Shown here one piece after another: positions 3,877-38,070 of a stretch of DNA of 53,085 bases (position 1 is the first letter of the stretch; each line of letters opens with the position of its first letter). Source of the stretch: Lentzea indica (GTDB lineage Bacteria > Actinomycetota > Actinomycetes > Mycobacteriales > Pseudonocardiaceae); NCBI RefSeq assembly GCF_012184385.1, contig NZ_VSRL01000040.1, forward strand, positions 1-53,085, read 5' to 3'. The notes beneath the pieces were generated by a model that did no database searches, was not told the origin of the DNA, and saw only the letters and a program-made list of their open reading frames with translations. The position numbers and the translations under genes are program-made.

Positions 3877-6635
3877 CTGATCGGCCGCGATCACGAGATC
3901 GGCCGGTTGCGCGGTCTGCTGGCCGCGCTGAAGACAGGCCGCGGAAGTGTCGTGTGGATCGAAGGCGAGCCCGGCGTGGGGAAGTCCGCGCTGATCGCCG
4001 CGGTGCTCACGGAGGCCGCCGAGGCCGGCTGCCGGACAGCCCTCGCGGTCGGCGACCAGCTCGTCCAGGGTCTTCCGGTGCGTGCGCTGCTCGACGGTCT
4101 CGACCGTGCCGGCGACGTGGCGGAGCTGGACCCGGACGCCGGTGCCGGGACGGCGGTGGGCGGCGATCCGGTTCCCGTCGCGGTGGAGCGGTTGCTGTCG
4201 CTGGTGGATCGCTGGTGTGCGCGGGCACCGGTCGTGCTGGCTTTCGACGACCTGCAGTGGGCTGACGAGGCGAGCCTCCTCGCCTGGCGTCAACTCGGCG
4301 AGATCGCGGATCAAAACCAGCTGTTGCTCGTCAGCGCCTGCCGGCCGGTGCCGGTGCGGCCGGTGATCGCACGTCTGCGCAGAACCACGTTGCAGCGTCG
4401 TGCCGCGCACCTGCCTTTGGGACCGCTCGACCCCACCGCGGTCGTTGCCCTGACCGCGCTGCTGACCGGAGGCCAGCCGGGGCCGAGACTGCGCGCGGTC
4501 GCGACGCAGGCCGGCGGAAATCCGCTGTACGTTCGCGAGCTGGTCGACGCCGTGCTGCGGGACGGGCTGCTGCGGATCGCCCGTGGAAGCGCGGAACTGG
4601 TGCCCGACGGCGAGTTCGCCGGGGTGTCACCGGCCGGCGCGATCACCGCCCGGATGGACTTTCTCACCCCTGAGGCGACGAACACCCTCCGGATTGCCGC
4701 GGTGCTCGGTCACGACTTCTCCGTGTCGGACCTCGCCACCGTCACCGGACGACAGGCCAGTGAGCTGTTGCCGGTGGTGGACGAAGCGATAGCGGCGGGC
4801 GTACTGGCCGAGGACGACGACCGGCTGGTCTTCCGTCACGGTCTGATCCGCACCGCCCTGTACGAGGCCGCGCCCGTCAGCGCTCGGCTGGCGATGCACC
4901 GGCAGGCGGCGCAGGCGCTCGCGGAGGCGGGGCTGCCCGTCGACCGCGTGGCGGGCCACCTGCTGTTGTCACCGGAGTCCTTCGACGGGTGGGTCCTGGA
5001 CTGGCTGGTCGATCACGCGGTCGAACTCGCCCACCGCGTGCCGCAGGCCGCCGCGGAGCTGTTGCACGTCGCCGTCGAAAGGTGCGGCGGTGAACCCCGG
5101 CAGGCCAAGTTGCTGCACGGGCTGGCCACCACGCTGCTGTTGCTGAACCAGTTGCACGACGCCGAACGGGTCGCCAGGCAAGCTCTTGCGCAGGCCGCGG
5201 AACCCGAGGCGATGGCGGAAATCGCGTGGGTTCTCGGCCGGACACTCGCCCGGCTGCGCCGCCACACCGAAGCGTTGCTGGCCTGCGAGCAGGTCGCGGC
5301 ACAACCCCGGATACCGGCGGTGTGGCGGGCCAGGCTGGATGCGTGCCGCGCCTACGCGCTGGCGATCTCGGAACATGGCGTGGCGGCGAAAGCGGCGGCC
5401 GAGCGAGCCCTGACGGAGGGCCAGCGACTGGCCGACGGGACGACCATCGGGTACGCCGCGCTGTCGTTGTACATGCTGCTCGACTACGCGAGCGGCCTCG
5501 TGTGTGTGGAGCACGCACTCGCCGACATCGGTGAGGCGCCGGAGACGATGGATCTGCGCGTGCCGCTCTTGGTGAACCGCAGCACGTGTCTCGACGAACT
5601 TGGCCGTCACGACGAAGCCGAGGTGGTCTTGGGAGAAGCGCTGGCGCTGGCTCAGCGACGGGTCACCTGGCGGTTGGCGACCGTGCGTTGTGCGGCTGGC
5701 TGGCAGTCTCTCGACATCGGCCGCTGGGACGACGCGAAGGCGGAGTTCGAGTCGCTGGCCGAGGAACTCGACGAGTACGTGCGCTGGGTGCTTATCGGTG
5801 GCTTGGCGTTCATCGCCTGCCACCGCGACGAGAAGGCTCTCACGGTGGAACTGCTGGCCGCCGCGGACCGCATGCCCCAGCCGACCGGCTACCTGCTCGG
5901 AGTCACCAGCCACCTGCGGATGGCACGTGCGGTCGACGCCGAACAACGCCGCGACATCGCGCAGGCCGCGAAGATCTTCAGCGGGACGGTCGGCATCGAC
6001 GACGGTGTCCGTTACTACGACAGGCATCTCTGGTTGCCCGATGTCGTCCGGCTCGCCCTCGCGAGCGGCGATGCCGATCTCGCACACGCTGCGGTAGCGG
6101 CCGCCGAGGCCGATGTCGCCGCGGAGCCGCTGCCGAAGCGGCACCTGGCCGCCCGCCGGGCCAGAGCCGTGCTCGACGGCGACATCGCGCGCCTGATCGA
6201 GGTGGCCGACGACTACCGCGTCGCGGGACGACCGCTCGAGCTGGGCCAGGCGTGCGAGGAGGCAGCGGTCCTGCTGGCCAGGGCGGGAGAGCGGGCATTG
6301 GCTCGTGCCCGGTTGACCGACGCGGTGTCGGCCTACCTCGAACTCGGTGCCGCGTGGGATGTTCGCCGTGCCGACGGTCGGCTGAGACAGCAGGGAGTGC
6401 GGCGCGGCCGCGGGCGATCCGGCGTCGCCCCGCAACCGGGTGGGAGGCGTTGACCCCGACCGAGGAACGAGTCGCCGAGCTCGTGACCGAGGGACTTTCC
6501 AACCCGGACATCGCCGCCGAGATGTTCCTGTCCCGGCGCACCGTGCAGACCCACGTGTCCAATGCGCTCGCGAAACTCGGTGTCGCGTCGAGAACCGAGA
6601 TCGCCCGCGAAGCGGCTCGGCGCAACCCTCGATGA
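3877..6635 (+). pseudogene. LuxR-family LAL-type ATPase regulator, frameshifted
   Basis: Large ATP-binding LuxR regulator (MalT/LAL type, about 920 residues). The protein begins with LIGRDHEIGRL, followed by Walker A GEPGVGKS and Walker B VVLAFDDLQWAD, a long helical TPR-like middle, and a C-terminal LuxR helix-turn-helix (LTPTEERVAELVTEGL ... RRTVQTHVSNALAKLG). The long frame stops at 6453; the DNA-binding domain lies in another frame from about 6400, one base missing or two extra. No ATG, GTG or TTG precedes the conserved N-terminus after the in-frame stop at 3787; the first standard start, TTG at 3907, would cut into the domain. CTG at 3877 is only a placeholder start. Probably inactive unless the shift is an error. 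Confidence 0.75.
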
Positions 6636-35188: not shown

Positions 35189-35620
35189 GCTTGACCTCCA
35201 GTTAGGTCGAGCTCACAGGATCGGGGCATGACTCTTCCCGCGTTGCCCTCGTTCGTCCACGACCGCACGGACCTGGACGGCTTCAAGTCGATCTTCGCGA
35301 GGAGGGCAGGGCCCCGCCCTCCTCGGGGGCAGACCGGCCAACACTGTCAGCCTATTCGCGAAATCGGGCTGTCAAGCCGCCGCCGGTCGATCTGTGGACA
35401 ACTCGGCTCGCGGTTCGAGTTGTCCACAGATCGCCGAGTGGTGGCTTGACACCGCGCTTCCGCAACTAACGTCAGGTCATACGGGATCGGGTGGTCAGCC
35501 CCCAGTGGAGGGCGGGGCCCTGCCCTCGGCGCGGCGTCGGTCGGCTCGGTCACCGCTGCCTGGCGCCGGGTGCAGAACTTCCCCGGCGTCCAGCACGTCA
35601 GCGTGGAGCGGTACCAGCCG
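35189..35620. other. intergenic region holding a foldback element and flanking ORF halves
   Basis: Contains an ATG at 35228 reading MTLPALPSFVHDRTDLDGF, then a foldback repeat, then on the far side in the same frame a coding-like stretch (AWRRVQNFPGVQHVSVERYQ) that runs to a TGA at 35650 inside the nadC 3' end. These may be the halves of a small gene split by the element. Confidence 0.4.
35302..35527. mobile_element. 226-bp MITE-like foldback element with nested palindromes
   Basis: Perfect 21-bp terminal inverted repeats at 35302-35322 and 35507-35527, each itself hairpin-like (GAGGGC ... GCCCTC). A nested perfect 18-bp inverted repeat (35388-35405 and 35416-35433, 10-base spacer) sits at the centre, with an outer TGTCAAGCC/GGCTTGACA pair, so the centre forms an imperfect 36-bp stem. 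Each central arm contains TTGTCCACA, the actinobacterial DnaA-box form, in opposite orientations. No coding capacity and no clear target-site duplication. Confidence 0.8.
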
Positions 35621-36457
35621 CTAGCGAAGGTCCAGGCCGAGGTCGAGTGACGGGCTGGAGTGCGTGAGACCGCCCACCGCGAGGTAGTCCACGCCGGTCT
35701 CGGCGTACCGGCGGGCCAGGTCCAGCGTGAGCCCGCCGGACGCCTCCAGCTTCACGTTCTCCGGCCGCCGCTTGACGGCCTCGGCGCACTGCTCGGGCGT
35801 GAAGTTGTCCAGCAGCACCAGTTCCGCGCCTTCGGCGATCGCCTCGTCGAGCTGCTGCAGGCTGTCGACCTCGACCTCCATCAGCAGTTCGGGCGCGTGC
35901 GCGCGGGCCGCACGGATCGCGGCGCTCACCGAACCCGCGGCGGCGACGTGGTTGTCCTTGATGAGGATCGCGTCGCCGAGGCCCATCCGGTGGTTCACGC
36001 CGCCACCGCACCTGACCGCGTACTTCTGCAGAAGCCTCAGTCCCGGCAACGTCTTGCGTGAGTCACGGACCGCGGCGCCGGTGCCCTCGATCGCGTCGAC
36101 CCAGCGCGCGGTCTGGGTGGCGATGCCGGACAGGTGGCAGACCAGGTTCAAAGCCGTGCGTTCTACCGTGAGCAGACCACGGGTCGGGCCGGTCAGCACC
36201 AGCGCGGGCTCACCGGGCACGGCCTTGTCGCCGTCCTGCGCCTCGGTGAGCACCTCGACCTCGGGCAGATAACGCTGGAAGGCCGCGCGTGCAATGGAAA
36301 CGCCGCACAGCACACCGGCCGCCCGCGGGGTGATCTCCGCGGTTGCGACGGCCTTCTCCGGCACGGTCGCCAGTGTGGTGGCGTCCAGGCCGTAGCGGAG
36401 GTCTTCCTCCAGGGCGAGCTGGATGACCCGGTTCGCGTCGTCCCAGTCGATGGTCAT
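35621..36457 (-). CDS. nadC: NadC: quinolinate phosphoribosyltransferase
   Basis: A 278-residue enzyme forming nicotinate mononucleotide from quinolinate and PRPP. NLVCHLSGIATQTARWV, DSRKTLPGLRLLQKYAVRCGG and HRMGLGDAILIKDNH are signature regions. The ATG overlaps the nadB stop by four bases (ATGA). The C-terminus abuts the foldback-element region. Last gene of the nadABC operon. Confidence 0.95.
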   Translation of the reverse strand: MTIDWDDANRVIQLALEEDLRYGLDATTLATVPEKAVATAEITPRAAGVLCGVSIARAAFQRYLPEVEVLTEAQDGDKAVPGEPALVLTGPTRGLLTVERTALNLVCHLSGIATQTARWVDAIEGTGAAVRDSRKTLPGLRLLQKYAVRCGGGVNHRMGLGDAILIKDNHVAAAGSVSAAIRAARAHAPELLMEVEVDSLQQLDEAIAEGAELVLLDNFTPEQCAEAVKRRPENVKLEASGGLTLDLARRYAETGVDYLAVGGLTHSSPSLDLGLDLR

Positions 36458-38070
36458 GCGACACCTTCTGCGAGAACGGGATCGGCCAGCACAGGCTGGC
36501 CGGTCGGAGTGAGCCGGACGAGCTGGCTGCGTTGCCACGCCTCGGAGCGCGAAGTGTGGTCGGTGCGGACGTGGCAGCCGCGCGACTCGGTGCGTTCCTG
36601 CGCGGCGGCGATCAGGGCGCGGGCGGCCAAGGTCAGGGCAGCGTCCTCGACCAGTTCGCGCGACTCGAGCTGCTTGTCCACAGTGGACACGTCGAGCACA
36701 GAGCCGACGACGTCGAGGCCTTCCGCGTCACGGCCGATCGCGGCGTAACGGGACATCACGCGCTGGAGCAGGTCGCGGTCCGCGACCGGAGCCGTGGGAA
36801 GAACCGGATCCACGGCGCGAGCGGGTGCGATCAACCCGACAGCCAGATCGGCAGCCACGGCCTCGGCGGCACGGGTGCCGCAGACCAGGCCTTCGAGCAG
36901 GCTGTTGGAGGCCAGGCGGTTCGCGCCGTGCAGGCCCGTGCGGGCCACCTCACCGATGGCGTACAGGCCGGTCACGCCGGTGCGGCCGTCGACGGTGGAA
37001 ACCACGCCACCGCAGGCGAAATGTGCCGCCGGGGCAACGGGAATCGGGTCCACAGCCGGATCGATCCCCACAGAAACGCAGGCCGAATACACGGTCGGGA
37101 AGCGAGAAGCCATGTCGTGCAACGCGGTCGCGTCCAGGAAGACGTGGTCGTCGACGCCGCCGGGCTCCGCTGCCATGTGCCGGGTGATCGCGGCCGCCAC
37201 GACGTCGCGCGGGGCGAGATCTTCCAGCGGGTGCACGCCCTTCATCACGCGGGCGCCGGTCGCGTCGATCAGCACGGCACCCTCGCCGCGCACGGCTTCC
37301 GTGACGAGCGGGCACCTGCCTCGGGCACCGCGCCCGGTGTAGAGGACGGTCGGGTGGAACTGGATGAACTCGACGTCCGCGGCCAGCGCCCCGGCCCTGA
37401 GTGCCAGCGCCAGGCCGTCACCCGTTGCGACAGAGGGGTTCGAGGTCGCCTGGTACATCTGACCGATGCCACCGGTCGCGAGCAGCACGGCGGGAGCCGT
37501 GAGCACGCCGGGCACGCCGTTGCCGTCGAGCACCAGCAGGCCGCCGACTGCACCGAGTGGCGTCTTGACCGCGTCGACCGCAACGTGGTTCTCCAGCAGG
37601 GGAACCCGTCCGTCCACAGTGGCCTTGAGCAGCGCTCGTTCGACCTCGGCGCCGGTCGCGTCGCCGCCGGCGTGCACGACGCGGAACGCGCTGTGGCCGC
37701 CCTCGCGGGTCCGTTCCAGCAGGCCGTCGGGCTTCGCGTCGAACACGGCGCCGCGCTCGCGCAGCCTCGCGACGGCCTGGGGGCCGTCCGTGATGATCGT
37801 GGTGACCGCGACGTCGTCGCAGAGGCCCGCGCCTGCCGTCAGCGTGTCCTCGATGTGCCGCGCGACCGAGTCGCCGGGGTCGTGCTGGTCCTCCATGACC
37901 ACCGCGACGCCGCCCTGCGCCCAGCGGGTGTTGCCGTCGTCGCCCGCGGCCTTGGTGACGACGAGGACGCGAAGTCCCAGCTCACGGGCCCGCAGCGCGG
38001 CCGTGAGGCCCGCTACGCCCGTACCGACCACGATCAGGTCGGCCCGCGCCTCCCAGCGCGCGGCCATCAC
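36454..38070 (-). CDS. nadB: NadB: L-aspartate oxidase
   Basis: A 538-residue FAD flavoprotein oxidising aspartate to iminoaspartate. The FAD motif [15 protein letters not shown] is at the start; [26 protein letters not shown], the substrate region EFIQFHPT and [20 protein letters not shown] follow. GTG at 38070 or ATG at 38067 both fit; the GTG overlaps the nadA stop. Works with NadA. Confidence 0.95.

Follow-up and report, generated by a model that had tools for sequence, protein, structure and literature searches.

A foldback repeat family of Lentzea that very probably enters genes in place of segments of about its own length

A foldback element of about 210-230 bp that carries paired DnaA-box motifs is found inside broken genes of Lentzea, and very probably it entered them by substitution, displacing a part of the gene roughly as long as the element itself. 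The copy described first lies in the window, by which we mean the whole analysed stretch of 53,085 nucleotides from Lentzea indica (contig NZ_VSRL01000040.1), part of a draft genome of 9.97 Mb in 634 contigs. Mobile elements, small mobile repeats included, are generally taken to add DNA, and a gene knock-out at nearly unchanged length would be missed when insertions and empty sites are searched for. If true, the family would provide a case of heterologous replacement that recurs in nature, with a mechanism open to experiment in a soil genus.

The element in the window and its family

The window copy separates two remnants of a host gene. Its features are as follows:

35228..35287, plus strand: what is left of the host gene at its 5' end, the start codon plus about 20 codons, from alignment to the intact orthologue; flank matches to the loci of 11 relatives stop at 35282-35287
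35302..35322, plus strand: left terminal inverted repeat, 21 bp, within the hairpin 35298-35325 (repeat match)
35309..35520, no strand: core of the foldback element common to 14 copies, 212 bp in the window copy (multi-copy alignment)
35349..35375, minus strand: outward promoter-like pair TTGACA-15 bp-TAGGCT (sequence pattern)
35388..35405, plus strand: left arm of the central inverted repeat, with TTGTCCACA on the minus strand at 35393-35401; conservation 0.97 over 35388-35403
35416..35433, minus strand: right arm of the central inverted repeat, with TTGTCCACA on the plus strand at 35420-35428; conservation 0.96 over 35418-35433
35446..35472, plus strand: outward promoter-like pair TTGACA-15 bp-TAACGT (sequence pattern)
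35507..35527, minus strand: right terminal inverted repeat, 21/21 bp (repeat match)
35540..35650, plus strand: 3' remnant of the host gene, to the stop codon (77-94% matches to relatives, from about base 341 of the query onward)

The first-pass annotation had described perfect 21-bp inverted ends, a perfect 18-bp central inverted repeat with two opposed copies of TTGTCCACA, and a capacity of most of the element to fold on itself. The ends match at 21 of 21 positions, the central arms at 18 of 18, and both boxes are present in opposite orientations. As a single strand, 35298-35532 folds at -90.2 kcal/mol, against -49.9 +/- 3.8 in 200 shuffles (z = -10.5), and the imperfect arms exceed the earlier description (53 nt at 79% and 34 nt at 88% complementarity). 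An Rfam search of the element gave no credible family; its four matches, all to microRNA models and far below the gathering scores, were read as chance hairpins. The paired-box palindrome occurs once in the window (0.00 expected), and TTGTCCACA occurs three times (0.22 expected), a count reached in 0 of 100 shuffles. The third TTGTCCACA lies outside the element, at 36674-36682, within a 538-aa ORF (36454-38070) that we take to be nadB-like.

Copies with common ends were found as well, and 10 of the 24 Lentzea genomes together have at least 14 full ones. Five are in the window's own genome (the window, C532, C198, C605 and C293; BLAST), and G004, G007, G009, G010, G011, G012, G014, G016 and G022 have one each, that of G011 with one end incomplete. 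The survey covered 59 other genomes, 23 of them Lentzea, and about 10 candidates were scored per genome, so that 14 is a lower bound. The core measures 201-229 bp across the 14 copies. These sequence comparisons support a real, multi-copy, dispersed family in Lentzea.

The blocks that hold the boxes are the most conserved part of the family. In the 14-copy alignment, mean conservation of the two 16-bp blocks is 0.97 and 0.96, against 0.77 for the core (219 columns). The claim that TTGTCCACA is the DnaA-box form of high-GC actinobacteria agrees with PMC4285127, where it is listed as a high-affinity DnaA box for two of them, Mycobacterium tuberculosis and Streptomyces coelicolor. The binder may nevertheless be a protein other than DnaA, since the conserved block outruns the 9-mer: 27 of 28 arms have an exact TGTCCACAGATC, against 23 of 28 with an exact TTGTCCACA. 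Outside the boxes, TTGAC[AG] is found in 26 of 28 arms, the exceptions being the left arms of L007 and L067; the outward arrangement TTGAC[AG]-15 bp-TANNNT is found in 24 of 28. Sigma-70-type promoters usually have a spacing of 16-18, and no promoter-like pair at 16-18 bp was found in the element; because 15 bp is shorter than usual, we call the hexamer pair promoter-like at most.

Besides full copies, half units of about 105 bp with a single arm also occur. Those in L074, L076, L077 and L206 immediately precede one and the same start codon, of what is presumably a transporter gene, and point outward toward it; from their position, they look as if they had been taken over as promoter. L077 (G004:C11) has two half units about 1 kb apart, at about 1030-1145 and 2090-2208, and L068 (G014) is a partial arm.

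Gene segments at the element loci

For each locus, the differing segment was bounded by the BLAST flanks, and the net change is the relative's segment minus the element-bearing segment. Lengths (bp) are given for the element-bearing segment and the chosen relative, followed by the net change and its values among relatives:

Window locus: 257 and 260, net +3; 11 genomes, +1 to +10
C532 locus: 253 and 256, net +3; three relatives, all +3
C198 locus: 223 and 210, net -13; eight loci from six genomes, all -13
L060 locus: 247 and 251, net +4; ten loci from nine genomes, +4 or +5
L061 locus: 248 and 263, net +15; nine genomes, +15
L063 locus: 225 and 229, net +4; one genome (G018) twice, +4
L064 locus: 262 and 267, net +5; four loci from three genomes, +5
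L065 locus: 295 and 266, net -29; five genomes, -29 to -35
L029 (C293) locus: 297 and 313, net +16; seven relatives, +16 to +18
L007 (C605) locus: 319 and 319, net 0; eight relatives, 0 four times, -3, +6, +15 and +18

Six of the ten loci are within 5 bp of the chosen relative's length, and all ten within 29 bp. Among the relatives compared, those with an intact gene are few at two of the loci (3 of 23 for C532, only G018 for L063). L258, a further relative at the L064 locus, lacks the element; its alignment runs through the site without a break, and the net change is -2; the comparison of L061 with L150 (net 1169 bp) was left out as mis-anchored on a tandem paralogue. The empty sites that the first-pass annotation expected in sister strains did not appear in simple form: at 10 of 11 events hardly any length was added, and there is neither a simple empty site nor a target duplication. 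With so small a net length change, insertion that adds the element to an empty site was rejected at the ten loci.

Host DNA missing at the ten loci amounts to 188-237 bp, with cores of 201-229 bp. Raw lengths of element-bearing and relative's segments correlate at r = 0.92, a value inflated by diverged flank counted on both sides, and an eight-locus length correlation (p = 0.002) was discarded for the same inflation. Between lost length and core length the correlation is r = 0.35 (permutation p = 0.09 and 0.16). What is lost thus comes to roughly the length of one element; these lengths do not distinguish a loss truly matched to each element from one that is always close to 215 bp.

The lost piece resembles the element no better than random segments do (p of 0.05 or more) in 14 of 18 comparisons at eight loci; similarity above chance was seen in the other four, at L060 and L064. 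Homology between element and lost piece was rejected as the cause of the length match, being at chance in those 14 comparisons. We found no excess of microhomology at 20 junctions (4.7 against 4.9 nt, p = 0.83); the comparison begins only at the point where similarity stops, which biases it against detecting microhomology. The copies are old, and because of this age (mean identity between loci, 66%) the junctions are blurred by later indels.

At all ten loci the displaced part lies in an open frame of the relative, and at L065 the missing piece extends 12 bp past the gene start. Pfam names seven of the ten intact products (DUF3626, methyltransferase, GNAT, Macro, DJ-1/PfpI, PF00144 serine hydrolase and RlaP), and has no match for the product of the window's gene (141 aa) or for proteins of 126 and 297 aa, which we take to be a membrane protein and kinase-like, respectively. 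The window's disrupted gene presumably adjoins nadC. We see no common function among the disrupted genes. In the alignments the host genes are decayed in the element-bearing genomes. A frame of more than 60 aa spans the element at three of the ten loci (L064, L029 and L007), and it is seen to be the host gene's own frame only at L007. There, at 1183-1827, the DJ-1/PfpI frame of C605 is open through the element, with a predicted product of 214 aa; a chimeric DJ-1/PfpI protein is possible.

In the tree of element cores, three pairs group, each at one locus: L007 with L067 (0.999), L065 with L069 (0.96) and L002 with L062 (0.91). L066 (G011) lies in the same gene as L065 and L069, reversed, and falls apart from that pair in the tree, with 62.7% and 66.5% identity to its members; copies at unrelated loci have a mean identity of 66.4%. 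Since same-locus pairs group and L066 stands apart, the 14 copies correspond to about 11 events at 10 loci; L062, L067 and L069 were taken as same-event copies, and the G011 copy was left out of the ten loci. The Macro-domain gene thus carries two unrelated copies in opposite orientation, L285/L286 (G010, G016) and L295 (G011), and their right-hand junctions, judged by eye, almost coincide, which hints at target choice.

Several sites depart from this pattern or fit it less clearly. At the Macro locus, about 1.4 kb lies between the flank matches in G011, against about 260 bp in the G010 copy, thus about 1.2 kb extra. The copy that G007 has in common with C532 has about 800 bp of other DNA next to it. 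Added length is seen for the half unit L071: in G002, a single-contig genome, 382-392 bp separate the flanking genes, against 10-17 bp in five relatives. This comparison covered the loci of 15 of 23 relatives, nine of which gave one flank only; in it, L320 has 1252 bp against 952. L398 (G016, about 1106-1229) is an internally deleted copy that has both ends, about 124 bp between them, and lacks the opposed central boxes; the spacer that holds it measures 289-320 bp in G016, whereas G019 has 45 bp there and G003 has 363 bp. This copy may therefore be additive, and, although it is the one short variant seen, so variable a spacer does not discriminate between matching and constant loss.

Candidate routes of replacement

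Taken whole, the reading that we prefer, a non-autonomous foldback family that enters by length-preserving substitution through a replication-linked route, we regard as evenly balanced; the replication-linked route by itself is doubtful. A hairpin-forming single-stranded copy of the element would be built into the nascent strand, replacing about 210-230 nt; alternatively, the replisome would copy the element for about 210-230 nt and resume where the fork has advanced. The conserved block with the DnaA box might serve to load a replication protein of the host, or to open the duplex, and so provide single strands. Three considerations, all of them inferential, make us favour such a replication-linked patch: length could be preserved in the absence of homology by strand exchange or by coupled template switching, the element has a strong fold, and a box for the replication initiator lies in its best-conserved part. 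That the family is mobile and propagates by length-matched substitution without homology, possibly fed by a single-stranded copy opened by DnaA, we put forward only tentatively; we know of no element that transposes by length-matched substitution.

The main rival is a transposase with fixed target loss, that is, an ordinary MITE whose putative transposase deletes target DNA, the loss of about 190-240 bp being set by the geometry of the transposition complex. We consider it rather unlikely. Sharp inverted ends and many copies are what it would produce, the replaced lengths of 188-237 bp are as compatible with a constant loss as with matching, and the Macro gene was struck by two unrelated copies near one right junction, as by a site-choosing enzyme. 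However, no length was added, and so no target duplication, at ten events, and no bacterial MITE family with a constant target loss of about 215 bp is known to us.

Allele exchange instead of mobility, with a single replacement per locus that then spread between species by homologous recombination in the flanks, is improbable as a full account, although the distribution of copies within loci has features of it. In a tree built on the alignment of seven flanking loci, with 15,037 columns, G014 stands beside G020, G010 beside G005, and G016 next to G012, G020 and G014. The L007 replacement is present in G000 and G014, and G020, the near-sister of G014, keeps the gene segment; the L065 replacement is present in G010 and G016, whereas G012 keeps the segment and G005, the sister of G010, is without the element. 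The copies of these two loci group by locus in the core tree, yet G020, G012 and G005 are without the replacement. Exchange of short tracts with unsampled species, or repeated restoration, would explain this patchy pattern. Such exchange covers the spread within a locus only, and the same element in ten unrelated genes needs an origin.

Similarly improbable is a DnaA-binding or promoter module kept for regulation, with half units as promoters and full units in genes as relics. The strong conservation of block and spacing and the half units upstream of one start codon in four loci are in its favour, but the full units lie in broken accessory genes without a common function, and their arrival in genes would go unexplained. 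Chance, in the form of an insertion that added length to a gene which then decayed in the ordinary way, gains some colour from the decayed host genes but is very improbable given six of ten loci within 5 bp of the relative's length and all ten within 29.

Known systems and related repeats

The Lentzea element resembles MITEs in being short, dispersed and foldback with inverted ends, but it replaces about its own length of target without target duplication. Of the MITE-like character given to it by the first-pass annotation, the foldback structure, terminal repeats and many copies stand; additive insertion does not, as at 10 of 11 events a gene piece of about equal length is missing. The family is no textbook MITE. 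In SPDIR, a heterologous segment replaces genomic DNA via two joint illegitimate events at microhomology, and no dedicated repeat family is known to take part. Heterologous DNA likewise replaces the target in Lentzea; unlike in SPDIR, a dedicated repeat family is involved. Microhomology showed no excess at the Lentzea junctions in the test biased against it. The sites datA and DARS are DnaA-box sites outside oriC, and the Lentzea boxes also lie away from the origin, but in a dispersed palindromic repeat inside broken genes.

Rickettsia palindromic elements are described in the accessible part of PMC10969869 as in-frame integrations inside unrelated protein-coding genes. The Lentzea repeats are also palindromic and inside unrelated protein-coding genes; in contrast to those in-frame elements, the host loses a gene segment and the gene's frame is seen to stay open only at L007. 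In the accessible main text of the same MITE review there is no word starting with "replac", "deletion" or "DnaA". A search of the open PMC literature (subscription papers lying outside its scope) gave no paper joining Lentzea with miniature inverted-repeat, or miniature inverted-repeat transposable with DnaA box, and nothing useful in the broad foldback-element literature.

No match to the element was found in plasmid and phage records, and viral contigs gave 0 matches to the box-hexamer pattern. In the genome contig collection, the pattern of TTGTCCACAGATC, 12-14 bases and TTGACA has 25 matching stretches, 21 of them in Lentzea and one each in Streptoalloteichus, a Pseudonocardiaceae bacterium, Qaidamihabitans and a Bacteroidetes MAG. 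Near 1003 of L216 (Pseudonocardiaceae bacterium) there is, by eye, a similarly built unit, also with 15-bp spacing. L211, from other Pseudonocardiaceae, has two opposed boxes near 4307, one as TTATCCACA, together with an outer CAAGATC that several Lentzea copies also have at their ends. In G016, a short inverted repeat of another kind (GGGCGTGTCCCGT ... ACGGGACACGCCC) lies beside the orthologue of the window's gene, at about 1428-1501 of L042. Finally, a stretch of about 90 bp near the end of C293 (L029, about 2156-2249) recurs at the first bases of three G017 contigs and is probably the edge of a larger repeat.
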